Shown here one piece after another: positions 2,976-30,707 of a stretch of DNA of 30,959 nt. Position numbers and translations under genes: made by a program. Each line of letters begins with the position of its first letter. Within the stretch, counting starts at the first letter, position 1. The stretch is taken from the IMG/VR virus record IMGVR_UViG_3300025695_001202, positions 1-30,959 of that record; one strand, 5' to 3'. This DNA comes from a virus. The notes beneath the pieces were generated by a model that was not told the DNA's origin, did no database searches, and saw only the letters and a list, made by a program, of their open reading frames with translations.

Positions 2976-3299
2976 TTATTTTTTACTGTTTACTAATTTA
3001 CCTATCTTAGTTAAATCTGGTTTACCATCAGCGCCATAAGGTATGGTATAATAATTACCGTCAGGATCTTTCGCCAACCTAACGTCGTTACCTCCTTCAT
3101 TGTCCTCTTGGTCGTTACCCTCTTGATCATTGTCTTCAGGTTCTAAATCTTGTTGATCTTCATAATCACTAAACCCTGGTTGTTCTTCTGGACCACCTAA
3201 GTTCATGTCATCCATTGCCCATGAATTACCCTCTTCTTTGATTATATTACTAACGATTTTACTAATATCTGACTGTTTTAATTTTACTATTTTTGACAT
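2976..3299 (-). CDS. Small acidic phage protein with N-terminal helix motif
   Basis: A 107-residue protein in three parts: a basic-amphipathic N-terminal helix (MSKIVKLKQSDISKIVSNII followed by KEE), a low-complexity acidic middle of about 45 residues (repeated QE, ED and ND units), and a short C-terminal part (DGNYYTIPYGADGKPDLTKI). The helix pattern S-[DE]-I-x-K-[IL]-V-x(3)-IKE returns at the extreme C-terminus of the protein at 7565. It is the first gene of a three-gene leftward unit (3299 to 328) and has the palindrome TATTTATAAATA upstream. A linker or cargo protein of the virion is a guess from composition only. Confidence 0.65.
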   Translation of the reverse strand: MSKIVKLKQSDISKIVSNIIKEEGNSWAMDDMNLGGPEEQPGFSDYEDQQDLEPEDNDQEGNDQEDNEGGNDVRLAKDPDGNYYTIPYGADGKPDLTKIGKLVNSKK

Positions 3300-3309
3300 A
3301 TCCTTGTTT

Positions 3310-3855
3310 TTATTTATAAATATCTAAATCTTTGAAAAAGGGTAGTCCCTTATCCTTATTTGAAATTAGGAACTCTTTGCTCACATCCCAATCTATATCT
3401 AATTGAGGGTCATTGTATATAATACCGCTCTCACTGATTTTACTATATGTATTATCAACCTTATAATTTAATGTTGAATCTTCTTGTGTTGAGAATCCAT
3501 GTGCACACCCTCTCGGTATAAATAAAGACCTATTAAAACCACCAGAGAGTATTACCTGTATTTTACGACCATAACTTTCTGAATTACGTCTTACGTCCAC
3601 AACAACATCCGTAATCGAACCTCGGGTGCATCTAACTAACTTTGCTTGATCAAACGGTGGTAGTTGTAGGTGGAGACCCCTAATTGTGTTTTTATAACTA
3701 AATGATTCATTTTCTTGGATGGAGTTAAAGTCTATGCCTGTCTTCACTTTAAATAGTGTCCTATTAAATGGTATATTAAAAGACCCTCTCTCATCAATTA
3801 TGTGGTCCCACTCGATAATATAACAATCCTTAATAATTGTTTCTACTAATTTCAT
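3310..3855 (-). CDS. rmlC: dTDP-4-dehydrorhamnose 3,5-epimerase (RmlC-like)
   Basis: A 181-residue cupin enzyme. RmlC epimerises C3 and C5 of dTDP-4-keto-6-deoxyglucose, the third step of dTDP-rhamnose synthesis, in the cytoplasm. Visible marks: RGLHLQ at 59-64 with the catalytic base His62, QAKLVRC at 70-76, DVVVDVRR at 83-90, LFIPRGCAHGF at 111-121, and a Tyr near 131 in the place of the catalytic Tyr. Length fits the family (about 180). The other rml genes are absent here, so it must use host dTDP-sugar or make a different 6-deoxysugar, such as a 3- or 5-epimer. It overlaps the preceding small gene by 26 bp, so the two are likely translationally coupled. A sugar-nucleotide 3,4-ketoisomerase of the same fold is the main alternative. 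Confidence 0.88.
   Translation of the reverse strand: MKLVETIIKDCYIIEWDHIIDERGSFNIPFNRTLFKVKTGIDFNSIQENESFSYKNTIRGLHLQLPPFDQAKLVRCTRGSITDVVVDVRRNSESYGRKIQVILSGGFNRSLFIPRGCAHGFSTQEDSTLNYKVDNTYSKISESGIIYNDPQLDIDWDVSKEFLISNKDKGLPFFKDLDIYK
3315..3322 (-). promoter_or_regulatory. Putative phage promoter element (TATTTATA)
   Basis: TATTTATA on the coding strand begins 23 bp and ends 16 bp before the ATG at 3299. It is embedded in the palindrome TATTTATAAATA, so the T4 late consensus TATAAATA is also present in the coding direction at 3311-3318. The same octamer lies close to the starts at 6528, 8968, 9483 and 14545. Confidence 0.35.
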
Positions 3856-5109: not shown

Positions 5110-6528
5110 TTAGTATTCACTATCATAAAACTCTAATTTTCTATTATGAACAATAAATGATAATGAAAGTACTTGCGTACCCACTATTAAGTTATCTACC
5201 GTCTCTATATCTGCAGCGAAAAATGAACCTGTTGCAACCTCTAATTGTAACAATTCTACAGATACAATATCAACTTGATTCCCATCAAAATCCAATAATT
5301 TATGGTTGGATGGGGTTAGTTGGAATACACTTACGTATCTAATACCTTCTTTAGTGGTGTCATATACCATTGCCGAACTACTACCACCTAAATAAAGTGT
5401 CTCATTAGTAGTCGTCACTTTAAAGACCTCACCGTTAAGGTTTGGTGTTTTGTGTTGACCGTGTACAACAACCGAAGAAGTTACCTCAGACCCTTCAGGC
5501 CACGTACTACCACTATGAAACCATGATAAATATTCATCAGGTATGTCGGTGTCAGGTGCGTTAGGGACATAAAATGATTTTAACTCCTGACCCACAAAAA
5601 TTTCGTCTAAACCTACTGGTTCATTATCTATAGACGACGATACGAATGTCTCAGTTTCAAACACTCCATCAACCACATCTTTAGTTTTCCATGTTGATGT
5701 AGAAAATTCTTTTTGGTGTTTGATAGGTAACTCCCAATTTGTCAATCCATCCCAATTTAAATTTGATGATGATGGTATACTAAATTCTGCAACCCTTTTC
5801 ATAGTACCCAAATCAATGTAATCTAATCCACTACCATAAACAATTCCATAGTTTCTATATGATTCAACATAATTAGAATCTATAGCACTTTGGTTAATTT
5901 CATAGTTCTGCATATAATGGGTTTCATTAAGATCATTCTTAGCTGTTTCCCAATCACTTATTTTAGAAAAAACCACATTTCCGTGAACGTTAGATTTAGG
6001 TTTGTATACCACATCGGGTATATTATCCGGATTAGATGAAGAAATAAGTGTGTTAATCACCGTACCATCATCATCCACAGTATAGAATGGTATCGCGGCG
6101 GAACCCGAACCCACTTCGTTAAATAACTTTAATACTGTGTCACCCTTAGAAGTGTATTGTGAATCTAATATTGCGTTTTCATCATAACACATTCTAAGTA
6201 TAAATTTATTATCTGCATCTCCCACCGGTGTCGGGAAAGAACTATGTAGTGGTTCGGATTGTGTGGTAATAGTTGTTATATTCGTTGCATTTTCAGTAAC
6301 CTTTAACTTTAAATCATCTACCGCGTCTTTATGTAGTTCCGCTTTATACATTAAATGTAACGTATCGAAACCATTGTTAGGGTCAGACAAAAAATCCGTC
6401 AGTCCCGTCCAATCTGCATCATTTTTTAAGAAATTACCATATAGTACGGTATCTGTGTTCATTTCTAAGAATCTGAGATTACCGTCCCTATCCTTAACAA
6501 AGTCATTTGAAATTAATATTCCTTTCAT
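5110..6528 (-). CDS. Phage protein with ATP-grasp-like start and Hint-like C-terminus
   Basis: A 472-residue protein without a firm family. The N-terminus holds DGNLRFLEMNTDT (about 15-27), which is like the metal and substrate loop of ATP-grasp enzymes, and KFILRMCYDENAILDSQY (around 107-125) and DVVYKPKSNVHG (around 170-181) would fit such a fold; this is weak. The last 100 residues look like a Hint (hedgehog/intein) beta domain: VFQLTPSNHKLLDFDG at 401-416 resembles intein block B, and FIVHN at 458-462 resembles the C-terminal splice motif. The +1 residue is Arg rather than Cys, Ser or Thr, so full protein splicing is not expected. The many Ser/Thr and beta-prone stretches would suit a virion surface protein. 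Confidence 0.6.
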   Translation of the reverse strand: MKGILISNDFVKDRDGNLRFLEMNTDTVLYGNFLKNDADWTGLTDFLSDPNNGFDTLHLMYKAELHKDAVDDLKLKVTENATNITTITTQSEPLHSSFPTPVGDADNKFILRMCYDENAILDSQYTSKGDTVLKLFNEVGSGSAAIPFYTVDDDGTVINTLISSSNPDNIPDVVYKPKSNVHGNVVFSKISDWETAKNDLNETHYMQNYEINQSAIDSNYVESYRNYGIVYGSGLDYIDLGTMKRVAEFSIPSSSNLNWDGLTNWELPIKHQKEFSTSTWKTKDVVDGVFETETFVSSSIDNEPVGLDEIFVGQELKSFYVPNAPDTDIPDEYLSWFHSGSTWPEGSEVTSSVVVHGQHKTPNLNGEVFKVTTTNETLYLGGSSSAMVYDTTKEGIRYVSVFQLTPSNHKLLDFDGNQVDIVSVELLQLEVATGSFFAADIETVDNLIVGTQVLSLSFIVHNRKLEFYDSEY

Positions 6529-6547: not shown

Positions 6548-6555
6548 TATAAATA
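6548..6555 (-). promoter_or_regulatory. Putative phage promoter element (TATTTATA)
   Basis: TATTTATA on the coding strand, followed by TAAAAGATATTATAAAATT and the ATG at 6528. It sits in the 51-bp gap between this gene and nagB, which is one of the few gaps in the left part of the window. Confidence 0.35.
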
Positions 6556-7564: not shown

Positions 7565-8968
7565 TTATTTGTTTTCTTTAATCGTTTTAACCACTAATTT
7601 CTTTATTTCACTTTCATTCATTTGAGCGTTTCTCAAATTTCTCTCACCACCTAAATCCTCTATCTTAGTAACCGCTCTTCTTATAGAATCGGCAGGATTA
7701 GTAGATAATAATTCATCTTTAAAATCCTTAATTACTTGTTCAAGACCCGCAGAAATATTAATATCTGTAAGTGGGTGATTAGTTCCCGTATCTGTTTCAG
7801 ACCCACCATCAAATTTTTTAGGTTCACTTAATTCAACCTCAACGGTTTTATCGATCTCACCGTCCCTTATCATTTTTCTTGCAATGTTGTCGGTTGGTGC
7901 TTTCTTAGCGTATTCAACTAAATATGTAATATTCCAAGACCACTTAGTTGTTTCACCTTCTTCATTCTTTTCAGTTGACTTACCTGTTATTTTAACGTCG
8001 GACGCAACCATAACCTCAAACTTCCTATCGTTCGGGAAGTCACCTTGATCTAATTCGAATACGGGTGTTTTCCCATAACTTGAGTTACTCGTAAACCTTG
8101 TCTTAGACCAATTAGTGTATTTTGTGTTATATAACCTTCTAAGTGGTTTACTTTCTTTTTCAGGTACCTTACTAAGATCCCTTAATCTAGCTGACATTGC
8201 AACGTCCTTTATGAAGTTTTTCTGTGTTTCGTAAAGATTAATGTTGTGTGACTGAAAAGATATTTCACTATCACTAGTTGTACTATATCTATTTCTATGT
8301 TTAGGGTCGTCTATAATTATTTTAGGTAAACTAAGTTTTTTTAATCCATTATTAAGTTCTTCATCCTCTTGAATTTCTTTTTTAAGAATACTATTAAATG
8401 TTCTATTAATCTTCTCAGTTGTTTTTGTTGTTTTGAAGTTACCCTCGTCATCGAACCCTATTTGAAATGGGTCAACATCTAAGGTGAAGACTTCTTCTCC
8501 CCCCTCACCAGGTATTGCCTTAACCGATAGACTTTTACCCTCTTGGGTTCTAGGTGGGTCATATCCACAAGCCGCTTCAGTTAGTTTAACATCACCATAT
8601 TTATTTCGTATTTTAGTTGTTAAATCCGGATGTCTCTCCTTTAATTCGTCCCATTCACATGAAAATATAATTGGTAAGACTTCGTCTGTTTCTCTATTAT
8701 ATTTGAAAAAACCAACATGTTCTATAGGTTTTCCCGATTCATCTGTTGCATATAGTGGTGTCCAATCCGGTGGGAATTTCTTATCTTCTGGATCCTTAGC
8801 CCTTCTATTAAGTCTTCTCGGGTCCGAATCTCTCTTTATCTTTGTGACATCTCTTGGCATCTCATCCAAATCCTCAGATTCGTTAGGTCCGGCGTATCCT
8901 GCATGTCTTATTGTGGTTAGATTCTCCCCAATCAATGTAAGGATATCTTTTTTATTTAATTCTTCCAT
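7565..8968 (-). CDS. Unknown phage protein, charged, with C-terminal helix motif
   Basis: A 467-residue, highly charged protein; no domain recognised. The N-terminus MEELNKKDILTLIGENLTTI is an amphipathic helix. The first 100 residues are rich in Arg, Asp and Pro (e.g. RDSDPRRLNRRAKDPEDKK) and contain PPDWTPLYATDESGKPIEHV. The last 18 residues, MNESEIKKLVVKTIKENK, repeat the helix motif seen at the N-terminus of the protein at 2976. The central part carries mixed beta-prone segments, including SSYGKTPVFELDQGDFPNDR. Its transcript ends at the terminator 25 bp downstream. A virion or head-associated protein is a possible reading; I cannot show it. Confidence 0.65.
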   Translation of the reverse strand: MEELNKKDILTLIGENLTTIRHAGYAGPNESEDLDEMPRDVTKIKRDSDPRRLNRRAKDPEDKKFPPDWTPLYATDESGKPIEHVGFFKYNRETDEVLPIIFSCEWDELKERHPDLTTKIRNKYGDVKLTEAACGYDPPRTQEGKSLSVKAIPGEGGEEVFTLDVDPFQIGFDDEGNFKTTKTTEKINRTFNSILKKEIQEDEELNNGLKKLSLPKIIIDDPKHRNRYSTTSDSEISFQSHNINLYETQKNFIKDVAMSARLRDLSKVPEKESKPLRRLYNTKYTNWSKTRFTSNSSYGKTPVFELDQGDFPNDRKFEVMVASDVKITGKSTEKNEEGETTKWSWNITYLVEYAKKAPTDNIARKMIRDGEIDKTVEVELSEPKKFDGGSETDTGTNHPLTDINISAGLEQVIKDFKDELLSTNPADSIRRAVTKIEDLGGERNLRNAQMNESEIKKLVVKTIKENK

Positions 8969-8981
8969 GAGATAATTTATA

Positions 8982-8989
8982 TATAAATA
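8982..8989 (-). promoter_or_regulatory. Putative phage promoter element (TATTTATA)
   Basis: The coding strand reads GTATTTATATATAAATTATCTC just before the ATG at 8968; the octamer ends 14 bp upstream of the start. The gap to the next gene is only 23 bp, so the motif fills most of it. Confidence 0.35.
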
Positions 8990-8991
8990 CT

Positions 8992-9483
8992 TTAATTATT
9001 TGTTTTATTATTAGTATCCGTTTGATCTGAGTCCGTTAACTCACCAATGAACACCTTAGGTTGTATACCCATCGCGGCTGCAGTACAAAGTCTCGTGTTA
9101 CCCGCAACTAAGTGATACCTATTATTAAATTTTAATATTAATGGTCTTTTGTAGGAACCATCCTCAAATGAGTTTTTCAATTTAGATGGGTTACTTTTAT
9201 CATATGTGTCGGCAATTTTATTAACCTTATCCATATCACCCTTCTCCACATCATTGGACTCTGTATTCTCTAACTCGTCCCAAATATCTTTATTTAATGT
9301 AACTTCTTTAGACTTATCAAAGACGTCAACCAACTCATTAACAGTTACATGTAACCCCTCATCTCTATTAAGATACTGAGTTACTCTTTGGATCTCATCC
9401 ATTTCACTCTTTAAGTCAGGTCTATTGATGGGATTAACACCCATCATTTCACTAATTCTCCTTATGTCTTCAGATATTAACAT
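8992..9483 (-). CDS. ParB-like nuclease-fold protein
   Basis: A 163-residue protein. The N-terminal helix MLISEDIRRISEMMGVNP is a leader type I associate with large T4-like phages. The C-terminal third carries the ParB/sulfiredoxin-like core: KRPLILKFNNRYHLVAGNTR (112-131), where the GNTR stretch replaces the usual GEHR box, followed by a helix (AAAMGI) and a strand (KVFIGEL). Phage proteins with this core are often adaptors, DNA-binding proteins or nucleases. The basic surface of true ParB is missing, and the tail is Asp/Thr/Asn-rich. A TATTTATA motif on the coding strand overlaps the start codon (9483-9490). Confidence 0.65.
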   Translation of the reverse strand: MLISEDIRRISEMMGVNPINRPDLKSEMDEIQRVTQYLNRDEGLHVTVNELVDVFDKSKEVTLNKDIWDELENTESNDVEKGDMDKVNKIADTYDKSNPSKLKNSFEDGSYKRPLILKFNNRYHLVAGNTRLCTAAAMGIQPKVFIGELTDSDQTDTNNKTNN

Positions 9484-9490
9484 ATAAATA
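9483..9490 (-). promoter_or_regulatory. TATTTATA motif overlapping a start codon
   Basis: The coding strand reads AATATTTATTTATATG, with one exact octamer running into the ATG and a 7/8 copy 4 bp further upstream. If it is a promoter the transcript would be leaderless or start inside the gene, so it may be chance or the upstream copy may be the functional one. Confidence 0.2.
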
Positions 9491-9516
9491 AATATTAGTT
9501 AAAATGAATTAATTCG

Positions 9517-14056: not shown

Positions 14057-14545
14057 TTAAATGAGTGAACTAGGGGGTTTTGTATACCACATTACCAATA
14101 CCCTACGACGACCCCTCGTTATAGTTGATACTGAGTGTGGCTCATGACATCCAACATATTTAATGATCTGACCCCTTTTTTTAAAATTTGTTAATTCCCC
14201 ATTCAAATAAAAGTCACCACCTTCAAAGTTATCTTCTAACATAATAACATAGGTTTCATGTGAATCCTTATCTTTATGGTACGGAGCCATACCACCTACA
14301 GTATATGTAACATCGTGTATAGTTAATGGTGTGTTTGAGTCAATATTTATTATATGGGATAGTAATTTATTTAATTCGTTATTATCGACCGGATAAAACT
14401 TAACAATTTGAATAGTTGCATCGTTGACCGCATAGTCGTTGACAATTTTTGAGGTTTTTGTCATTTTATCCCTCTCAACTGTCGGAGTATTAATTAGTAG
14501 GTTCTCTAATTTCGTTAGTAAATTATCATCTATTTCTCGAATCAT
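14057..14545 (-). CDS. 2-oxoglutarate/Fe(II)-dependent dioxygenase
   Basis: A 162-residue double-stranded beta-helix oxygenase. Iron ligands: His90 and Asp92 in YHKDKD, and His137 in CHEPHSVS; Arg145 or Arg147 in TRGRRR would bind 2-oxoglutarate. GGDFYLNG (109-116) is the usual beta-turn between them. It hydroxylates an unknown substrate, either a protein (prolyl hydroxylase-like) or a sugar. Compact enzymes of this kind are common in marine T4-like phages. Its place at the head of the glycan operon suggests tailoring of a glycan or of the protein that carries it. A TATTTATA element lies 11 bp upstream. Confidence 0.85.
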   Translation of the reverse strand: MIREIDDNLLTKLENLLINTPTVERDKMTKTSKIVNDYAVNDATIQIVKFYPVDNNELNKLLSHIINIDSNTPLTIHDVTYTVGGMAPYHKDKDSHETYVIMLEDNFEGGDFYLNGELTNFKKRGQIIKYVGCHEPHSVSTITRGRRRVLVMWYTKPPSSLI

Positions 14546-14555
14546 TATTTTAATT

Positions 14556-14563
14556 TATAAATA
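14556..14563 (-). promoter_or_regulatory. Putative phage promoter element (TATTTATA)
   Basis: The coding strand reads TATATATTTATAAATTAA, followed by AATA and the ATG at 14545. It lies in the 46-bp gap ahead of the five-gene glycan operon and would drive all of it. Confidence 0.4.
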
Positions 14564-18455: not shown

Positions 18456-19832
18456 ATGAAAAAGAAGATATTATTACTTTCTGATGATATGAGAATGACA
18501 TCTGGTGTCGCCACAATGTCTAAAGAAATTGTTTTAGGGACTGTAGATAAGTTCGATTGGGTTCAATTATCGGCATCGGTTAAACACCCCGAACAAGGTA
18601 AAATAATCGATTTAAATGATGACGTTAGGAAAAGGACAGGAGTAGAAGATGCAAGTGTTTTACTATACCCAACTAATGGGTATGGAGATATACATAAACT
18701 CCGAGAAATAATTAGGGATGAAAAACCCGATGCAATCCTACATTTCACTGACCCACATTATTGGCAGTGGTTGTACGATAACGAACATGAAATAAGAAAA
18801 CAAATACCAATATTTTATTATCACATATGGGATAACTTACCTGACCCACATTATAATAGGGATTACTATGAAAGTTGTGATTGGTTGGGTTGTATTTCAA
18901 AACAAACTTACGGTATAGTTCATAGAGTCGGGAAAACAAAAAGAGAGTCCACACATAAACCATTAGAGGATTGGCAGATTTCTTACGTCCCTCACGGTAT
19001 AAATACTGAAGTATATCACCCTATAGAGAATGTGGATGATGAGATGACTAAGTTTGTACATGGTGATAAGAATTACGATTTTATTCTTTTCTATAACAAT
19101 AGAAACATTAGAAGGAAACAACCTTCAGATGTGATTTATAGTTATAAATTATTTTGTGACACATTACCAAAAGAGAAATCAGACAAATGTTTATTGTTAA
19201 TGCACACATCTTCGGTAGATAAGAATGGGACGGATTTAGTATCCGTTGTTAATGAACTATGTCCGGATTATGATGTTAAATTTACTAAGGACAAATTTTC
19301 ACAAGATAAATTAAATAGAATTTATAACGTAGTGGATTGTACCATCAACATCGCAAATAACGAAGGGTTTGGTTTGACAACAGCCGAGTCATTAATGTCG
19401 GGTACACCGATCATAGTTAATGTAACGGGAGGTTTACAAGATCAATGTGGTTTTAAGATAAAGAACAAACCTTTAACTGAAAAAGATTATATTAAGATAG
19501 GATCTTTACACGACACAACTAAGAAACCTAAAGAACTTAAGTGGGGTGAATGGGTTGAACCTGTGTGGTCCACATCATTGACTTTAAATGGGTCCCCGAG
19601 TACTCCGTACATCTTTGATGATCGAGTTAACCACAATGACGTTGTCAATTCCATAGAAAAGATGTATAAATTGGGTAAAGACGGACGTAAAAGAGTCGGT
19701 CTATTAGGTCGAGAATATGTAGTTAAGAATTTCTCACAAAAAGTAATGTGTGATTCTTTAGTGAAGGGAATAAATAAGGCATTTAAGTCTTATAAACAAA
19801 AGAAACCATTTGAATTATATAAAATATCATGA
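18456..19832 (+). CDS. Glycosyltransferase family 4 (GT-B)
   Basis: A 458-residue GT-B enzyme. The N-terminal domain starts KKKILLLSDDMRMTSGVATM, where the SGVA loop is the usual GT4 acceptor loop. VPHGIN (178-183) marks the link to the C-terminal domain, and NNEGFGLTTAESLMSGTPII (297-316) is the donor-binding ExxxxxxxE motif, with GGLQDQCGF after it. Donor sugar is unknown. It overlaps the next glycosyltransferase by 4 bp. The run of two GT4 and two GT2 enzymes without polymerase or flippase genes points to glycosylation of a phage or host component in the cytoplasm rather than a full capsule pathway. Confidence 0.88.
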   Translation: MKKKILLLSDDMRMTSGVATMSKEIVLGTVDKFDWVQLSASVKHPEQGKIIDLNDDVRKRTGVEDASVLLYPTNGYGDIHKLREIIRDEKPDAILHFTDPHYWQWLYDNEHEIRKQIPIFYYHIWDNLPDPHYNRDYYESCDWLGCISKQTYGIVHRVGKTKRESTHKPLEDWQISYVPHGINTEVYHPIENVDDEMTKFVHGDKNYDFILFYNNRNIRRKQPSDVIYSYKLFCDTLPKEKSDKCLLLMHTSSVDKNGTDLVSVVNELCPDYDVKFTKDKFSQDKLNRIYNVVDCTINIANNEGFGLTTAESLMSGTPIIVNVTGGLQDQCGFKIKNKPLTEKDYIKIGSLHDTTKKPKELKWGEWVEPVWSTSLTLNGSPSTPYIFDDRVNHNDVVNSIEKMYKLGKDGRKRVGLLGREYVVKNFSQKVMCDSLVKGINKAFKSYKQKKPFELYKIS

Positions 19833-21088
19833 GTAAACAAGTACTATTATTTAGAGGACCGGTAAAAACCTTAAGTGGTTACGGTGCACACTCAAGAGAC
19901 ATCTTAAAATCATTATTTGATTTAGATATTTATGACGTAAAAATAGATAGTTGTGGTTGGGGTAACACACCAATGACAGCATTAGAACCATCTAACCTAT
20001 TCCACCAATGGATTGAGTCCTGCGTGGTCACATCATTCGATGGTGTACCTGACATATATGTTCAGGTTACCGTACCTAATGAATTCCAAAAAAGAGGAAA
20101 GTATAATATTGGGGTAACTGCGGGGATAGAAACAACTGTCGCACCTAAAAATTGGATTGACGGGATTAATAGAATGGATAAGGTTATTGTATCATCGACC
20201 TTTTCTAGAGATGTTTTACTTCAAACTGTTTATAATGAAAATGATAAGGTAACAGGTAAGTTAGTAAATCAACATAAGGTTACAACACCTATAGAAGTCC
20301 TTCATGAAGGGGTGGATTTATCGATCTACAATAATGAGGAGTCGGATATGTCTTTAGACTTAAAAGAGGATTTTAATTTTCTTTTTGTTGGTCATTGGTT
20401 GTCAGGTAAGTTAGGTCAAGATCGTAAGGATGTTGGAATGTTAATCAAATGTTTTTGTGAGTCTTTTAAGGATTCAGAAAATAAACCGGGTTTAGTATTA
20501 AAGACGTCTAGTACCACCTTCTCAATAAAACAGAGGGAACACATAAGAAAGAAAATACAAACCATTACGAGTGACTACGACAACCCTCCACCAATTTACC
20601 TACTGTTCGGACAATTAACCGATATGGAGATGAACAACCTTTATAACCACCCAAAGATTAAATCGATGGTGACTTTAACTAAGGGTGAAGGTTTCGGTAG
20701 ACCATTATTAGAGTTTTCTATGACAGGTAAACCAATCATATCATCTAATTGGTCTGGACAAAAAGACTTTTTACCTGCCGATAAAGCAATAATGATTGGT
20801 GGTAAACTTACTACAGTGGATGAAACGGCGGTGAATGAGTTTATTCTAAAAGACTCAAAGTGGTTTACCGCTAACTATAACGAGTTCATACACGTACTTA
20901 AAATAGTTAATGAACAATATGATACATTTTTAGATAGGTCAGAGAGTTTAAGGTTAGATAATATGAAAAATTTCTCAATAGAGAAAATTACCGAAGACTT
21001 AAAATTATTATTAAGTAAGGTTGTGGTTCAAAATACACCAACCAAAACAAAATTAGTTTTACCTGAATTAACGAAAGTAAAAAAATAA
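19829..21088 (+). CDS. Glycosyltransferase family 4 (GT-B), second copy
   Basis: A 419-residue GT-B enzyme. Residues 8-21 (FRGPVKTLSGYGAH) carry the Gly-rich acceptor loop, VLHEGVDLSIYN is the interdomain segment (about 152-163), and KGEGFGRPLLEFSMTGKPII (287-306) is the donor-binding motif with both Glu residues, followed by SSNWSGQKDFL. It differs enough from the gene before it that it is not a recent duplicate. The gene begins inside the stop of that gene (ATGA-type overlap) and ends at the ATG of the next one. Confidence 0.86.
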   Translation: MSKQVLLFRGPVKTLSGYGAHSRDILKSLFDLDIYDVKIDSCGWGNTPMTALEPSNLFHQWIESCVVTSFDGVPDIYVQVTVPNEFQKRGKYNIGVTAGIETTVAPKNWIDGINRMDKVIVSSTFSRDVLLQTVYNENDKVTGKLVNQHKVTTPIEVLHEGVDLSIYNNEESDMSLDLKEDFNFLFVGHWLSGKLGQDRKDVGMLIKCFCESFKDSENKPGLVLKTSSTTFSIKQREHIRKKIQTITSDYDNPPPIYLLFGQLTDMEMNNLYNHPKIKSMVTLTKGEGFGRPLLEFSMTGKPIISSNWSGQKDFLPADKAIMIGGKLTTVDETAVNEFILKDSKWFTANYNEFIHVLKIVNEQYDTFLDRSESLRLDNMKNFSIEKITEDLKLLLSKVVVQNTPTKTKLVLPELTKVKK

Positions 21089-21715
21089 ATGAAAATTAGT
21101 TACGGAATTACAGTTTGTAATGAACTTAAAGAAATACAAATTCTATTTAACTTTCTTTTAGAGAATAAGAGAAAGGAAGATGAAATTGTAATATTATTTG
21201 ATAAAAAGAACGGAACCAATGAAGTGTGGTCTTATCTAAAACTTATTAGTGGGAAGGATTGTTCTGTACATTCAGAAGAATTTGATAATGACTTTTCAAA
21301 TTGGAAAAACATATTAAGTGATTTTTGTAATGGTGATTATATATTTCAAATAGATGCCGATGAGGTTCCCCACAAATATCTTATATTGAATCTCCCTTTA
21401 ATTATTGAAAGTAACCCTAATAATGACCTATTTTTGGTACCTAGGATCAACACAGTTGAAGGTTTAACTAAAGAACATGTAAGTAGATGGAATTGGTCGG
21501 TTAATTCGTTAGGATGGGTTAATTACCCCGATTACCAAACACGAATATGGAAAAAGATTGATTCAATTGGTTGGGTTGGCCAAGTTCACGAACGTTTAAG
21601 GGGTTATAACAATTATTCTGCACTACCAGATGTAGAAGAGTATTCTCTATATCACCCTAAAGATATTGAAAGACAGGAAAAACAAAATAATTTTTATAGT
21701 AATTTAATAAGATAA
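21089..21715 (+). CDS. Glycosyltransferase family 2 (GT-A)
   Basis: A 208-residue GT-A enzyme. MKISYGITVCNELKEIQILF is the first strand with the nucleotide loop (TVCNE), DYIFQIDADEVPHKYL (89-104) holds the DADE metal motif, and WVGQVHERLRGY (about 168-179) is the VHExL block of lipid-A or core-type GT2 enzymes such as WaaE-like transferases. That block suggests transfer to a lipopolysaccharide core or similar acceptor, though the family is broad. It overlaps the next gene by one base (TAATG). Confidence 0.85.
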   Translation: MKISYGITVCNELKEIQILFNFLLENKRKEDEIVILFDKKNGTNEVWSYLKLISGKDCSVHSEEFDNDFSNWKNILSDFCNGDYIFQIDADEVPHKYLILNLPLIIESNPNNDLFLVPRINTVEGLTKEHVSRWNWSVNSLGWVNYPDYQTRIWKKIDSIGWVGQVHERLRGYNNYSALPDVEEYSLYHPKDIERQEKQNNFYSNLIR

Positions 21716-22812
21716 TGGACATATCCTTAGTTCTCGCAGTTTTTAATAATTTAGATTACACTAAAGATTGTTATAATCGTATTAGATATATATACCCTGA
21801 AGCCCCACTAGTAATTAGTAGTGGTGGTTCTACAGACGGTACTTTAGAATGGTTACAATCTTTAAATGATGATTACCTATCATACATACATGACGACGAT
21901 AAGTTGTCTTTCTCAGACAATTATAACTCTGCAATTAAATTGGTTGACACCGATAAATTAGTATTGATTCATAATGATATGATTATAGGTGAACATTTTT
22001 TGGAAAACCTATCTAGACTTTCGGATAAGGACACAATACTGACCTACACAGTAGTGGAACCACCAATATTTAAGGACCACAGTAAACCAGGTAAAGTAAT
22101 CATGGAAATGGGTAGAGGATTTAGTGATTTTAACTATGATCTCTTTAACCAATATGTGGAACGAAATAAAAATAATGAAACCATAATAAATGGTGCGACG
22201 TTTTTTATGTCGGGTTATAAAGAATCATTTATGGATATTGGATTATTCGACGGATTTTCATTTAACCCTTTCTTTTGTGAAGACGATGATTTCCTTATAA
22301 GGGCAAAACTAAAAGGTTATAAGTTAAAAACAACATCATGTGCAATAACCTACCACTTTGTTTCAAAAACAAGTAGAGTACTTAGATCTGATGAGGCAAT
22401 ATTAAGTGAACATAAGAACATTAGAAACTTTGTACGTAAGTGGGGAATAACAATACCCGTATTTAATGAACTTTATTATTGGGAGGACGATGTATTCGAA
22501 TTTAAGACCTTTACAATGGGTCTAACCACTAAAAATGAAAGTCGTTTGTTTAATGTTGAACCTTTTTTTGATAAGATTAATTTAGGTAGGATACCCTCAG
22601 AATATATTAATAATGAACAACCAAACACAAATTACGATATTAGGTCTAAATTCTTACTTACCGATGTTGTAGATGTAATGATATACGAAACTTCTCCAAT
22701 GACTGAAGAAGACATATATGTTATAAATAAAATCCGATTATCAATTCCTCACTATGAAGTTGGGGAATATCAAATCGGAAATTTACTTATCGATATTAAA
22801 AATAAGGTTTAG
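21715..22812 (+). CDS. Glycosyltransferase family 2 (GT-A) with C-terminal extension
   Basis: A 365-residue protein. The GT2 domain covers about 1-240: DISLVLAVFNNLDYTKDCYN with the FNN loop, ISSGGSTDGT at 34-43, HDDDKLSFSDNYNSAI, LVLIHNDMIIGEHFL with HND as the metal motif, and FFCEDDDFLIRAKLKGYKLK with the catalytic ED region. The remaining 125 residues are extra and carry no motif I know. It is the last gene of the rightward operon and ends 4 bp inside the convergent gene at 22809; no terminator is seen between them. Confidence 0.86.
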   Translation: MDISLVLAVFNNLDYTKDCYNRIRYIYPEAPLVISSGGSTDGTLEWLQSLNDDYLSYIHDDDKLSFSDNYNSAIKLVDTDKLVLIHNDMIIGEHFLENLSRLSDKDTILTYTVVEPPIFKDHSKPGKVIMEMGRGFSDFNYDLFNQYVERNKNNETIINGATFFMSGYKESFMDIGLFDGFSFNPFFCEDDDFLIRAKLKGYKLKTTSCAITYHFVSKTSRVLRSDEAILSEHKNIRNFVRKWGITIPVFNELYYWEDDVFEFKTFTMGLTTKNESRLFNVEPFFDKINLGRIPSEYINNEQPNTNYDIRSKFLLTDVVDVMIYETSPMTEEDIYVINKIRLSIPHYEVGEYQIGNLLIDIKNKV

Positions 22813-25783: not shown

Positions 25784-26791
25784 TTATAATTTTCTAAAAT
25801 CCGGTTTTAATATTCTCCATAGGGTTTCTGCGTAATCGGATCCATCTAACATCTTAAATAAGAGTTGTGGGTATTCATATCTTTTTGCTCTTTCTGCAAA
25901 TTCTGCTCGATTATCTTTTAGAGATTCTAATACATTATAGAACGCTAAGTAACTTGATTCTAATAAAATATATTGTGAAGTCAGTTCTTCTACATACTCA
26001 TCTATTTTATTAAAGAATTCATCAGGAACATCTTCTAATATTTTGTAAATATCATTTCCACTACTCAAACATTCCCATACAGATTTAGTAGAGATTTCAG
26101 TCATAATCTTATGAAGTCTAATGTACTCCTCACCTTTGATTTTACACCTATCTCCATTTGAGAACTTAATCACAAATCCTTCTCTATTTTCACCTATATT
26201 TTGTTTTAGGTATTTGTAATTCTTAATGTTATTGTATTTTCTAACAACATCATATCCATTATTTTTAAATTGATCTAATGAATATTCTTCACCTGAATTG
26301 GTTCCAATTCTCCCCAATAAAACTAATCTCTCTGAACCTGCGTAATCTACAACAATTCTGTTTTCTGGATAGATGATTTCAAACATATAGGTTGAATCTT
26401 TAGAAAAATGAGATTGTTGAAATTTATCCTTAAACATCTCACCACCTTTAATTGCCTGTTCGGAAGTAAAAGAACCTCTACTTGCAAAAATCCATTTACC
26501 ATCATAGTAAAATGCAATACCTAACGAACCATCCATTTTCTCATATACCTCAAACTCATCAGTTATTGTATGTTTTTGTTCCTCGATATTAAAGAACTTT
26601 TTAAATGGTCTTGCTACTACATTACCACTTTCATCAGTAACCAGTCCTCTACATTGTAGAGTAATTTCATCCCACTTACCTTCATATTGAGTTGCCTGAG
26701 AATAGTTCCAAATAGTCAAAGGTAGGGTTGGGTGAGTTTGTTTAATCAACCAACCATCTTCGTAGTATTTGTTTAATAATTCTAAGTTCAT
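25784..26791 (-). CDS. rnlA: T4 Rnl1-type RNA ligase
   Basis: A 335-residue ATP-dependent RNA ligase of the T4 gp63 (Rnl1) kind. Motif I is EKMDGSLG with nucleophile Lys85; Arg48 sits in CRGLV upstream; motif IIIa is in YMFEIIYPENRIVVDY (135-150); motif IV is EGFVIKF (204-210); motif V is CKIKGEEY (216-223). The C-terminal all-helical domain follows, as in Rnl1. It seals 5'-phosphate to 3'-OH ends in RNA; in T4, Rnl1 repairs tRNA cut by the host anticodon nuclease PrrC. The polynucleotide kinase gene lies 1 bp upstream, and the tRNA cluster is beside it. Confidence 0.93.
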   Translation of the reverse strand: MNLELLNKYYEDGWLIKQTHPTLPLTIWNYSQATQYEGKWDEITLQCRGLVTDESGNVVARPFKKFFNIEEQKHTITDEFEVYEKMDGSLGIAFYYDGKWIFASRGSFTSEQAIKGGEMFKDKFQQSHFSKDSTYMFEIIYPENRIVVDYAGSERLVLLGRIGTNSGEEYSLDQFKNNGYDVVRKYNNIKNYKYLKQNIGENREGFVIKFSNGDRCKIKGEEYIRLHKIMTEISTKSVWECLSSGNDIYKILEDVPDEFFNKIDEYVEELTSQYILLESSYLAFYNVLESLKDNRAEFAERAKRYEYPQLLFKMLDGSDYAETLWRILKPDFRKL

Positions 26792-27847: not shown

Positions 27848-28357
27848 TTACTTAGTGTTGTAATAGTTTTTCATGATCTCAGAATGTTCTTTTCTATGAG
27901 TTTTATTTGACCACCTTTGTTTTGCCTTTTCTGATATTTTCTTTTTGGTTTCTTCTGATATCCCCCTTCTACGATTTGCATCTGAAATTTTTTTTCTCGT
28001 TTCGTTAGTTGGTTTTTTCCCTTTATTAATTTCAGACAACTTTTTCTTGGTCTCAAGTGTGTGTTTTAACCCTAAGAACATTGGTCCACCCTCACCACCT
28101 AAACCCATATTATAGGTTTCACTAGTTGAGATAAACGACTCGTTTACTAGTTCTTTTTCTTTATTATTCATTTCTTCCTCACTATCAAATATAAACAAAA
28201 CTTGTTTTTCAAAGGACCCTTTTCCATACTTTTTTAATGCTTCCCTGATTGCCCTACCACTACCCATATAGTTATCATATGGATTTTTGGTTTGGTGTTT
28301 TCCAATATAAACCTTACCATTTATTTTGTTTGTTGTTTTGTATACCGTATATTTCAT
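27848..28357 (-). CDS. GIY-YIG homing endonuclease with NUMOD3 repeats
   Basis: A 169-residue protein from the ATG at 28355-28357; a longer frame starting with GTG further upstream would read through a tRNA-like element, so it is not used. The catalytic domain is MKYTVYKTTNKINGKVYIGK with the two Tyr motifs, RAIREALKKYG with the catalytic Arg, EKELV with the metal-binding Glu and YNMGLGGEGG. The C-terminal part holds NUMOD3-type DNA-binding repeats (ETKKKLSEINKGKKP, ETRKKISDANRRRG, ETKKKISEKAKQRW). This is a free-standing seg-like homing enzyme. It sits between tRNA genes, a common place for such elements to settle. Confidence 0.93.
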   Translation of the reverse strand: MKYTVYKTTNKINGKVYIGKHQTKNPYDNYMGSGRAIREALKKYGKGSFEKQVLFIFDSEEEMNNKEKELVNESFISTSETYNMGLGGEGGPMFLGLKHTLETKKKLSEINKGKKPTNETRKKISDANRRRGISEETKKKISEKAKQRWSNKTHRKEHSEIMKNYYNTK

Positions 28358-28372
28358 ATTAATAGGAATGTA

Positions 28373-28387
28373 ATCACTCACAGTGAT
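28373..28387 (-). other. Hairpin between tRNA-like element and GIY-YIG gene
   Basis: ATCACT, loop GTG, AGTGAT on the minus strand, 15 bp before the ATG at 28357. Either a leader hairpin of the homing enzyme or a processing structure for the RNA upstream. Confidence 0.35.
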
Positions 28388-28392
28388 ATTAG

Positions 28393-28484
28393 TTGGTATG
28401 GTAAGGATTCGAACCTCTATACCTCCGTTCCGCATTCCCCATATCGGTTCCAACTTCACAGTGTGCCCACTACACTACTACCAA
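28393..28484 (-). tRNA. tRNA-like element, degenerate, amino acid unclear
   Basis: A 92-nt element on the minus strand. Its 5' part follows tRNA numbering: TTGGTAG, TA, D arm GTGT/ACAC with loop AGTGGGC, and T at position 33. The 3' part has a normal T loop (GAGG TTCGAAT CCTT) and ATACCAA, which pairs with TTGGTA of the 5' end. The middle does not form a normal anticodon stem: T33 is followed by TGG (Pro), but 27-31 and 39-43 do not pair; a second possible stem, CCGAT/ATGCGG with one bulge, gives a GGG loop. It is a tRNA pseudogene or a class-II-like tRNA with an inserted piece. Confidence 0.4.
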
Positions 28485-28533
28485 ACGAGAGTTTCGAACC
28501 TCTCAGTCTCAGGTTAATTACTCCTAAGATTTG
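28482..28533 (-). ncRNA. D-armless tRNA-like element, candidate
   Basis: The minus strand reads CAAAT (closing 5' arm), CTTAGG / CCTGAG (6-bp stem with one G-T, loop AGTAATTAA), ACT, GAGAG / CTCTC (5-bp stem, loop GTTCGAAA, which includes TTCGAAA), GTTTG (closing 3' arm, pairs with CAAAT). This is a three-way junction with the T-arm signature but no place for a D arm, 52 nt in all. It begins at the discriminator base end of tRNA-Asp. Its 3' arm shares bases with the 5' end of the tRNA-like element at 28393, so the two cannot fold together. Confidence 0.4.
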
Positions 28534-29088: not shown

Positions 29089-29203
29089 ATTTGTAACTTT
29101 TAAATTATCCCCATAGTTACTAACTGTGCCAACATACGATTTGGAGGTATCAGTGTGCATTGTTAAGAGGCAGTACCTATCTTCGTTCCCTTGTACTTCG
29201 GGC
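29089..29203 (-). other. Spacer after the second GIY-YIG gene
   Basis: No coding sequence seen. Minus strand hairpins: CACAGTT-AGT-AACTATG (7 bp with one G-T, 29112-29128) and AGGTA/TACCT enclosing about 24 nt (about 29145-29175). It separates the homing endonuclease from tRNA-Glu and may be 3' processing sequence. Confidence 0.35.
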
Positions 29204-29884
29204 TTATTTCTTTTTTACTTTTCTACCTAATCTCCAACCCTCAGGTATTGCATCTCCTTTATGAATTTTCTTACTCTCAACATCATTTGTAATCCAACAG
29301 GTTCCGTACTGTGAGTTTTCCTTACCTTTGCCATGACCTTTTTTAGTCGCTTTCATCAGTTTAATAGTGCTGGTACTGTGTGTCCTACCTAACATTGTTG
29401 CATGATTAAAGTTAACTGCTTTTAGTCCTTCTGATATTTTATTTGAAAGTTTTTCATGGTCATCTTCGTTTAGTGAATCTCTCCATCGTTTTGCTATAAA
29501 CTTTCCATATTCCTTTCCATATTTTCCAACTAAGATCTCGTTTGTTTTTCTCCTACCTCTTTGTGCCTGTTCTTTGGTAAAGCCTCCATCTCCACCTACT
29601 TTTAGATTCATACATTCCTTCTTAGCAATTTCTTGAAGAGATACTACCTCTTTTTCTCTTACTGCTAATTCCTCTCTTGAATTTAAAAATTCCAAGATCT
29701 CTATCGAATGATTTTCTTTACCATATTTATTTATCGATCTCCTTAGTAGTATTCCAGATCCTAAATATCCATCATTCAAATCATCTGTTGAATGCATTCC
29801 TATATAATATCTTCCACTCAATAAATTTGTGGTCTTATAAATAAAGTGGTACTTTTTTCTTGTACCGTATTGTTTTTTTGCCAT
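29204..29884 (-). CDS. GIY-YIG homing endonuclease (Seg-like)
   Basis: A 226-residue enzyme. YHFIYKTTNLLSGRYYIGMH (13-32) is the GIY-YIG core, GSGILLRRSINKYG includes the catalytic Arg, REKEVV the catalytic Glu, and MNLKVGGDGG the closing Asn and Gly-rich turn. The middle is a basic DNA-binding linker, and the C-terminus (NSQYGTCWITND and IPEGWRLGRKVKKK) matches the DNA-recognition end of T4 Seg proteins. It lies between tRNA-Gly and tRNA-Glu. The leader has a 10-bp hairpin that covers the Shine-Dalgarno sequence. Confidence 0.93.
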   Translation of the reverse strand: MAKKQYGTRKKYHFIYKTTNLLSGRYYIGMHSTDDLNDGYLGSGILLRRSINKYGKENHSIEILEFLNSREELAVREKEVVSLQEIAKKECMNLKVGGDGGFTKEQAQRGRRKTNEILVGKYGKEYGKFIAKRWRDSLNEDDHEKLSNKISEGLKAVNFNHATMLGRTHSTSTIKLMKATKKGHGKGKENSQYGTCWITNDVESKKIHKGDAIPEGWRLGRKVKKK

Positions 29885-29887
29885 AAT

Positions 29888-29920
29888 GTACTTCCTTTCT
29901 AATAAATAGTAAGGAAGTAC
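29888..29920 (-). promoter_or_regulatory. Leader hairpin that buries a Shine-Dalgarno sequence
   Basis: A perfect 10-bp inverted repeat: GTACTTCCTT (29920-29911) and AAGGAAGTAC (29897-29888) on the minus strand, with the 13-nt loop ACTATTTATTAGA. The distal arm contains AAGGAAG, ending 6 nt before the ATG at 29884, so the stem would cover the ribosome site. The loop holds TATTTATT, a 7/8 match to the element found before five other starts. A transcript begun inside the loop would lack the upstream arm and free the site. Confidence 0.6.
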
Positions 29921-29936
29921 AAAAACAACTTCCCGG

Positions 29937-30008
29937 AGCGGCTAGAGAGAATCGAACTCTCATCTTTAGATTGGAAGTCTAAAGTAATGACCATTATACG
30001 ATAGCCGC
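29937..30008 (-). tRNA. tRNA-Gly (TCC)
   Basis: A 72-nt tRNA: acceptor GCGGCTA/TAGCCGC perfect, anticodon stem TTAGA/TCTAA, loop CTTCCAA, D stem GTA/TAC, T stem GAGAG/CTCTC with loop TTCGATT, discriminator T. No CCA encoded. Confidence 0.9.
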
Positions 30009-30225
30009 ATTTTCGTTTAGTGAGATTTGCCAAACTAGATTTTAACGGTTTTCTCATACTTTCATTTAAACCATTAGTGTCTTACCACATAAAAACAAGT
30101 CAAGTTACTGGGAGGCTCTACTACCTGCCTTTATTCCTCAGAGACCGGCATTAAGGATGTCCAGTCTAATACCCCTATTTTATTTATAGACTCCATAGAT
30201 GTCTGTGAGTATCTCTTACTCGTTG
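30009..30225 (-). other. Spacer between tRNA-Gly and tRNA-Thr
   Basis: No gene seen in 217 bp. Short stems occur, for example GAGTA/TACTC with a 5-nt loop (30207-30221), GGCAT/ATG(T)CC (about 30147-30162) and TGAGA/TCTCA (about 30021-30050). None is long enough alone to claim an RNA gene. Confidence 0.3.
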
Positions 30226-30297
30226 AGCTCAGACTCAGGTTCGAACTGAGGACTATTGATTACAAGTCAATTGTTTTACCAACTAAACTATCCGAGC
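30226..30297 (-). tRNA. tRNA-Thr (TGT)
   Basis: A 72-nt tRNA: acceptor GCTCGGA/TCTGAGC, D stem GTTT/AAAC, anticodon stem ATTGA/TCAAT, loop CTTGTAA, T stem CTCAG/CTGAG with loop TTCGAAC. Discriminator T. No CCA encoded. It is the cleanest tRNA of the set. Confidence 0.92.
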
Positions 30298-30707
30298 AAA
30301 TGAAGAGGTTTCGGGTCTTTCAGGGTTTCTGGTTTGGTAGGTATATTACAAACCCTTTTTAAGTTACCTACCCTAACAGCTTCACTACCTCTTCGCAAAA
30401 GACTTACCCTGGTACGATGTTCTTATGTTTATCGTGGTAAGTACTTATGATAAAGTTAGAATGGTGATTTGAATCCCTTTTAAGTTCCCTATGAACGTCT
30501 AACTTTTAATTTTTAACCATCTATAATAGCTGTATTAGATTGTTCCTATCTAATCAACTTAATGTTTCCAACACTATTATAAATGGTTTGGAGATAATTT
30601 CACTCTTGTTAAAATACCAACTTACCATTACCGAAAGTACTCCCGTAATAAATGGGACCGGGTTAAAGGGTCTATAGTTGTATGTTACTTTTTTCTTATT
30701 TGCCATC
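30298..30707 (-). other. 410-bp non-coding stretch with a run of stem-closed elements
   Basis: No gene is seen here. There are five stems in a row: GAAGAGGT/ACCTCTTC (30302-30309, 30387-30394) around GGTAGGTA/TACCTACC (30336-30343, 30365-30372); ACTTACC/GGTAAGT (30402-30408, 30436-30442) around ACGAT/ATCGT; AAAGTTAGA/TCTAACTTT (30452-30460, 30498-30506); ATTAGAT/ATCTAAT with a 7-nt loop (30534-30554); AATGGT/ACCATT (30582-30587, 30624-30629). The third encloses two hairpins and the T-loop sequence TTCAAAT on the minus strand. The order and spacing recall a row of eroded tRNA genes. Confidence 0.5.
30452..30506 (-). ncRNA. 55-nt tRNA-like element without a D arm, candidate
   Basis: A perfect 9-bp closing stem AAAGTTAGA/TCTAACTTT. 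On the minus strand it encloses GTTC-ATAGG-GAAC (4-bp hairpin at the anticodon side) and GGGA-TTCAAAT-CACC, whose loop matches the tRNA T-loop consensus. This is the same order of parts as at 28482-28533: closing stem, one hairpin, T-loop hairpin, closing stem. Confidence 0.45.

Follow-up and report, generated by a model that had tools for sequence, protein, structure and literature searches.

A conserved hairpin over the start of a SegB-like endonuclease gene in a phage tRNA array, a probable hairpin-gated late switch

The stretch of viral DNA analysed here, referred to as the window, is 30,959 nt long. It contains seven tRNA genes, all within 27.3-30.3 kb, and the gene P0001 lies between tRNA-Gly and tRNA-Glu. 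By homology, P0001 is a SegB-type GIY-YIG homing endonuclease. The protein matched phrog_314 (homing endonuclease) in a profile search with an E value of 5e-34, and shares 36% identity with T4 SegB across nearly its whole length (E 2e-42). The score against the Pfam family SegE_GIY-YIG was 23.4 bits, just below the cut-off of 25. Rfam at gathering thresholds matched the tRNAs alone. The locus comprises the following features:

29204..29884, minus strand: SegB-like GIY-YIG homing endonuclease gene (P0001), an ORF of 226 aa with its ATG at 29884
29885..29934, minus strand: leader of 50 nt, from the tRNA 3' end to the ATG
29935..30008, minus strand: tRNA-Gly(TCC), directly upstream, the presumed origin of read-through RNA
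29911..29921, minus strand: 5' arm TGTACTTCCTT, predicted to be missing from late transcripts
29887..29897, minus strand: 3' arm AAGGAAGTACA, which pairs with TGTACTTCCTT
29899..29909, minus strand: inner 3-bp stem and 5-nt loop, 29909-29907 pairing with 29901-29899
29902..29908, minus strand: TATTTAT, candidate late-promoter element, in the inner stem and loop
29895 (about +/-2 nt), minus strand: predicted late transcript start, placed by analogy with the T4 spacing
29891..29897, minus strand: AAGGAAG, Shine-Dalgarno-like, though a Bacteroidota host makes that role doubtful
29925..29929, minus strand: arm of a weak outer helix, pairing with AUGGC at 29884-29880 (RNAalifold consensus of five close relatives)

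A second GIY-YIG endonuclease gene, P0002 (27848-28357, minus strand, 169 aa), probably starts at ATG 28357 rather than at GTG 28459. It sits after a tRNA-like 3' end (about 28392) that received no ARAGORN call, and its leader contains no TATTTAT and is open (2.9 kcal/mol, by the measure given below). Between tRNA-Asp and P0002, tRNA-like TpsiC arms were read by eye (28340-28530, minus strand); they perhaps belong to a degenerate or variant tRNA-His. The tRNA array is adjoined by an RNA ligase gene (25784-26791, minus strand) that matches phrog_562 (T4 RNA ligase / tail fiber attachment catalyst) with an E value of 9e-70, a position that may suggest tRNA repair; its best listed cultured matches, at about 37-38%, are from Streptomyces phages. 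A block of glycosyltransferase genes (18456-22812, plus strand), on the strand opposite to most of the window, has homologs in Flavobacterium phage immuto.

The hairpin upstream of P0001 occupies 29921..29887 of the minus strand and is composed of 11 perfect base pairs, an A/A mismatch and then 3 bp (CTA/TAG), in the order TGTACTTCCTT-A-CTA-TTTAT-TAG-A-AAGGAAGTACA. The first-pass annotation, made from the sequence alone, had described a perfect 10-bp stem; this stem is real and highly stable, but it is 11 bp long, with the mismatch and three more pairs beyond it. AAGGAAG had been placed within the stem and 6 nt before the ATG, in agreement with the coordinates 29897..29891. The promoter-like element had been placed in the loop; it is indeed present in the hairpin, but its first bases overlap the inner stem and it spans both stem and loop. 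The weak outer helix (29929-29925 with 29884-29880), which was absent from that annotation, takes in the start codon too.

The MFE of the hairpin was -17.5 kcal/mol, compared with -4.87 (sd 1.95) for shuffles (z -6.5), and none of 200 shuffles was as good. When the same RNA was cut at 29907, the fold around the start was lost (-5.6, z -0.7). In 200-nt block shuffles, a 31-kb window is expected to contain 0.35 perfect short-loop arms of 11 bp or more. Since such an arm alone is not rare, the case rests on the relatives. TATTTAT was not enriched over the whole window either, with 28 occurrences against 27.95 expected. The palindrome and TATTTAT are each unremarkable singly; their placement and their conservation are not due to chance.

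A scan of viral contigs yielded 144 relatives, 80 of which were kept, giving 47 distinct leaders (more than 4 differences in 45). From genome contigs one relative was obtained, on a MAG contig and uninformative on the host. The gene begins 34-60 nt past the 3' end of a tRNA (39 cases, one untyped) or of a tmRNA (one case) in 40 of the 47, and the tRNA identities are many. TATTTAT was found in 37/47 leaders, while shuffling gave a mean of 2.33 and a maximum of 7; the remaining leaders contained ATATATA (five), ATAAATA (two) or none of the three elements (three). In L011, L025, L070 and L071 (4/47) the distance from the element to the ATG in use is 7-11 nt, which puts the predicted start past the ATG. 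Two hairpin geometries were observed. The element is either located in the loop between the arms, as in the window, or it is itself the 5' arm and pairs around the ATG (L012, for example), an arrangement that resembles T4 segB and I-TevI.

The cost of opening the region from -14 to +3 was computed for the full read-through leader and for an RNA starting 6 nt after TATTTAT, using as controls 1061 non-endonuclease ORFs from the window and six relatives' contigs, with a subset of 90 that carry TATTTAT at -18..-30. The median for the full leaders was 10.5 kcal/mol (n = 47 distinct), against 2.8 for the 1061 control ORFs. For the motif-matched subset (n = 90) the median was 3.0, the 95th percentile 9.4 and the maximum 12.3, so that some of these controls are partly closed. 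The 9.4 line was exceeded by 34/47 leaders, and by 27 of the 33 in which the element is present and the predicted start falls before the ATG, the other six lying below it. In these 33 leaders the cost dropped from 10.8 kcal/mol in the full RNA to 0.2 in the predicted late RNA, with the same outcome for offsets of 3-9. The window's own leader gave 13.9 kcal/mol in full and 0.5 in the predicted late RNA.

The spacing used for the predicted start is the T4 late-promoter-to-start spacing as it is given in PMC2988020. T4 leaders that served as positive controls were closed: segB 15.1, I-TevI 13.4, I-TevII 14.9 (late 0.4) and e 16.0 (late 0.9) kcal/mol. The effect was weak for soc (9.1 in full, 4.8 late), and no closure was obtained for T4 I-TevIII, a defective gene in that record, or for mobE (3.5 and 3.4 kcal/mol, respectively).

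The two sides of the hairpin change together among the relatives. When 5' parts were swapped among the 33 leaders, the mean closure decreased from 12.27 to 7.53, and 0/10000 permutations matched the observed mean. A leader's own 5' part ranked first in 8/33 cases and among the top three in 19/33. In eight leaders of the same geometry, 91.9% of the cells were paired, which fell to 39-56% after sliding by one to three columns; 6/20 pairs had changed on both sides, a count equalled in 1/500 shuffles, with the structure used in this count derived from the same kind of sequences. In the subfamily of the window (five leaders) 0/95 cells were broken; both partners had changed in one pair and a single partner in three. 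A 15-leader alignment with misregistered arms was left out of these counts. Shuffling the bases before the element alone gave p <= 0.05 in 19/33 leaders, and this test is blind in several leaders because the element itself forms the 5' arm there. The sense strand folded better than the antisense strand in 42/47 leaders, which favours an RNA over a plain DNA palindrome. As judged from these alignments and folds, the hairpin is conserved in the relatives as an RNA structure, with compensatory changes.

With regard to the element, 7-mers were counted at -40..-1 of the ORFs, observed against expected. TATTTAT was the top upstream 7-mer in the window (6 vs 0.5 expected). The element had previously been noted upstream of five other genes, and TATTTAT was found near these five minus-strand starts:

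3316..3322, minus strand: TATTTAT, before the gene with its start at 3299
6549..6555, minus strand: TATTTAT, before the gene with its start at 6528
8983..8989, minus strand: TATTTAT, before the gene with its start at 8968
9484..9494, minus strand: two overlapping TATTTAT immediately before the gene starting at 9483
14557..14563, minus strand: TATTTAT, before the gene with its start at 14545

The same word was also top in G005 (13 vs 1.8 expected) and in G023 (63 of 337 ORFs vs 3.9), ranked second in G006 (17 vs 1.2) after the overlapping GTATTTA, and was strong in G009 (55 of 360 ORFs vs 8.4). In G020 and G011 it reached 35 vs 4.8 and 17 vs 2.1, respectively. The signal was weaker in G004 and G008, where other words lead. 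Applied to the late region of T4, the count recovered ATAAATA (12 vs 0.4). TATTTAT is the reverse complement of ATAAATA, and the possibility of an antisense T4-type promoter was considered and rejected, given that G023 is enriched at -30..-1 for the sense word and not for its reverse complement; the rejection is less firm in G020 and G011, in which ATAAATA is enriched as well. The T4 late promoter box TATAAATA was not found in the sense strand, the element here being TATTTAT.

Other strong upstream words were also observed. In G009 (L124-L140) these were ACGTATAA/CGTATAA (CGTATAA 29 vs 1.3 expected), perhaps an early or middle promoter; in G004 (L089-L093), GTATAGA and TTGAAGG; and in G008 (L098-L102), TACATTTG.

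TATTTAT precedes late-type genes more often than other genes. When genes were classed by homology to T4 proteins, with G011 and G020 included, TATTTAT was found at most 60 nt upstream of 19/30 late-type but 1/13 early-type genes. In immuto it was present at 8/21 structural, packaging or lysis genes vs 2/21 others, the latter picked from the annotation. Pooled, with immuto included, the counts were 27/51 late-type vs 3/34 other genes (p 2e-5), where late-type means T4 late-gene homology or annotation and not expression timing. The 24/51 late-type genes that have no TATTTAT within 60 nt may in many cases be operon-internal. These counts point to TATTTAT as a candidate late promoter element in these phages. 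A match to the late sigma factor gp55 (phrog_234) was absent from the window's contig, a 31-kb fragment, and was obtained in 3/25 records. In the literature, no report was found of TATTTAT as a phage late promoter or of late promoter motifs of Flavobacterium phages.

The first-pass annotation had assigned the DNA to a Bacteroidota-type phage, and this was supported indirectly by homologs of Flavobacterium phage immuto, which were found for 44/107 ORFs of a relative's contig (G004) and for 7/36 ORFs of the window. The G004 helicase shares 77% identity with that of immuto. Near relatives of window positions 1-25000 were not found among cultured phages, and tblastn with two window proteins gave no match. 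According to PMC9976891, Bacteroidia ribosomes do not use Shine-Dalgarno sites. In line with the earlier claim that other genes here lack such a site, the Shine-Dalgarno core at -18..-4 was present in 0/34 window ORFs other than endonuclease genes (1.1 expected from shuffling), and among the endonuclease leaders only 6/47 carry it. In G004 the cores were above expectation (25/104 ORFs vs 7.3).

With these counts, the hiding of a Shine-Dalgarno site was set aside as the main point. The earlier statement that the hairpin hides the ribosome site holds in that the start region is closed, but AAGGAAG is probably not a Shine-Dalgarno site in a Bacteroidota host. It is more likely that AAGGAAG serves as a stem arm than as a working ribosome site, and that the hidden part is the start-codon region as a whole, because Bacteroidia ignore Shine-Dalgarno sites and few leaders have the core. 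An extended Shine-Dalgarno route via bS21-lacking ribosomes has been described for rpsU (PMC9976891); that such a route acts at AAGGAAG is a remote alternative.

The design is already known from T4 segB, I-TevI to III and Aeh1 mobE, and the leader described here matches it. Among the T4 cases segB, left unnamed in the earlier annotation, comes closest. As in the window, a homologous GIY-YIG endonuclease gene follows a tRNA gene (at 41 nt in T4), a hairpin covers the start and a late-promoter-like element is placed inside the hairpin; segB is listed among the hairpin/late-promoter cases in PMC2988022. In contrast, the T4 element CATAAATA is part of the 5' arm, whereas TATTTAT here spans the inner stem and loop, and the T4 host uses Shine-Dalgarno sites, which the presumed host here does not. 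In T4 I-TevI to III the ribosome site is described as hidden in the early/middle transcripts and accessible in the late ones (PMC2988022, PMC3014915). I-TevI and I-TevII differ in being intron-encoded, in td and nrdD, while the endonuclease here is free-standing in a tRNA array. Aeh1 mobE likewise encodes a phage homing endonuclease that is free-standing, and its ribosome site is concealed by a hairpin (PMC2988022, PMC3014915), but the enzyme is of the HNH family and the insertion is in genes for ribonucleotide reductase. For T4 e and soc, too, the late promoter is located in a hairpin or close to it, and the hairpin prevents the long early RNA from being translated (PMC3014915); these are, however, ordinary phage genes. 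A 2026 paper reports SegB homologs near tRNAs, those of Bacteroidota phages included, and a term search of its main text returned no mention of hairpin or late promoter (PMC13096335).

The T4-like design that had been proposed for this leader mostly held at the sequence level: full leaders are closed, predicted late RNAs are open, the arms co-vary and TATTTAT is enriched before late-type genes. It is therefore considered probable (about 0.8) that the leader of this mobile SegB-like endonuclease in a phage tRNA array acts as a hairpin-gated late switch. Read-through RNA from the tRNA genes would contain both arms, the start region would be folded shut and little endonuclease would be made early. 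At the late stage, the phage late RNA polymerase would recognise TATTTAT inside the hairpin and start transcription about 6 nt downstream of it, within the 3' arm or just before it. The late RNA, which would be devoid of the 5' arm, could not form the fold and the endonuclease would be translated.

Alternatively, the palindrome could be a DNA operator, bound by the endonuclease or by some other protein so as to shut off the promoter that overlaps it. This would be comparable to the autorepression of I-TevI, which is described as binding an operator that overlaps its own late promoter (PMC2988022); the element here is likewise inside the palindrome. An operator is unlikely as the explanation of the hairpin, as the better folding of the sense strand and the retention of G-U pairs fit a constraint on RNA, the stems of the relatives differ greatly in sequence while the pairing is kept, and the weak helix extends to the start codon. 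The operator and the RNA switch are compatible with each other. A role of the hairpin in RNA processing or stability, marking 3' cleavage of the tRNA precursor or protecting the mRNA 5' end, with an incidental overlap with the start, is a quite improbable explanation. The location of most relatives 34-60 nt past a tRNA or tmRNA agrees with this, as does the processing of T4 segB RNA, reportedly by RNase E (PMC2988022). However, L022, L057 and L082 are strongly closed with no tRNA found within 600 nt upstream, and neither a fold over the ATG nor an element at near-constant distance is required for processing. As a strong stem that follows a tRNA gene, the hairpin could also be an intrinsic terminator of the tRNA operon, a very remote prospect that was rejected since no T run follows either arm and a scan of 29100-30350 gave 0 terminator-like sites. 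An accidental palindrome in an AT-rich leader, conceivable from the expected number of such arms per window and the absence of window-wide TATTTAT enrichment, is contradicted by the permutations, by the pair changes in eight leaders and by the 34/47 leaders above the control line, and has very little probability left.

The hairpin-gated switch also appears to travel with its gene. The leaders of L004 and L144 are identical at 45/45 bases behind tRNA-Cys and tRNA-Gln, respectively, and farther upstream the identity falls to 2/5 and 11/50 bases. This indicates that the leader is part of the mobile unit, since the similarity is lost beyond leaders that are identical behind different tRNAs. The element in the leader seems to follow the phage in which it resides. 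In G025 the top upstream 7-mer is ATAAATA (11 vs 0.4) and the endonuclease leader contains ATAAATA as well; in G024 (L162-L174) ATATATA precedes 38/272 ORFs vs 1.5 expected, and ATATATA is again present in the endonuclease leader. ATATATA of G024 can be noted as a third candidate promoter class. Three Tequatrovirus/Mosigvirus SegB homologs have CATAAATA inside the hairpin. Five Klebsiella/Enterobacter homologs are devoid of both ATAAATA and TATTTAT (L148 and L150, 11.0; L083, 8.7; L154, 8.1; L149, 7.6 kcal/mol). Judging by these words, the leader element has apparently been retuned to each phage's own upstream word. We regard as finely balanced the broader proposal that the leader is a portable switch, off early and on late, which moves together with the endonuclease and is tuned per phage, the word being TATTTAT in phages of the Flavobacterium type and related large ones, ATAAATA in those like T4 and ATATATA in a third group.

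To the known design, this adds a further group of phages, a different promoter word, dozens of leaders conserved through compensatory changes and an apparent retuning per phage. The design is extended from T4 and Aeromonas phages to many uncultivated phages, at least some of which are relatives of Flavobacterium phages, and its compensatory conservation suggests that it is more than a T4 curiosity. SegB-type enzymes in tRNA arrays have been linked to the amplification of anti-defence loci (PMC13096335), and the timing of their expression matters because of this link. The translational block would be effective in hosts that make no use of Shine-Dalgarno sites. If the portable switch is true, it would operate there by burying the start-codon region, and the promoter code of uncultivated phages could be read from their mobile leaders.
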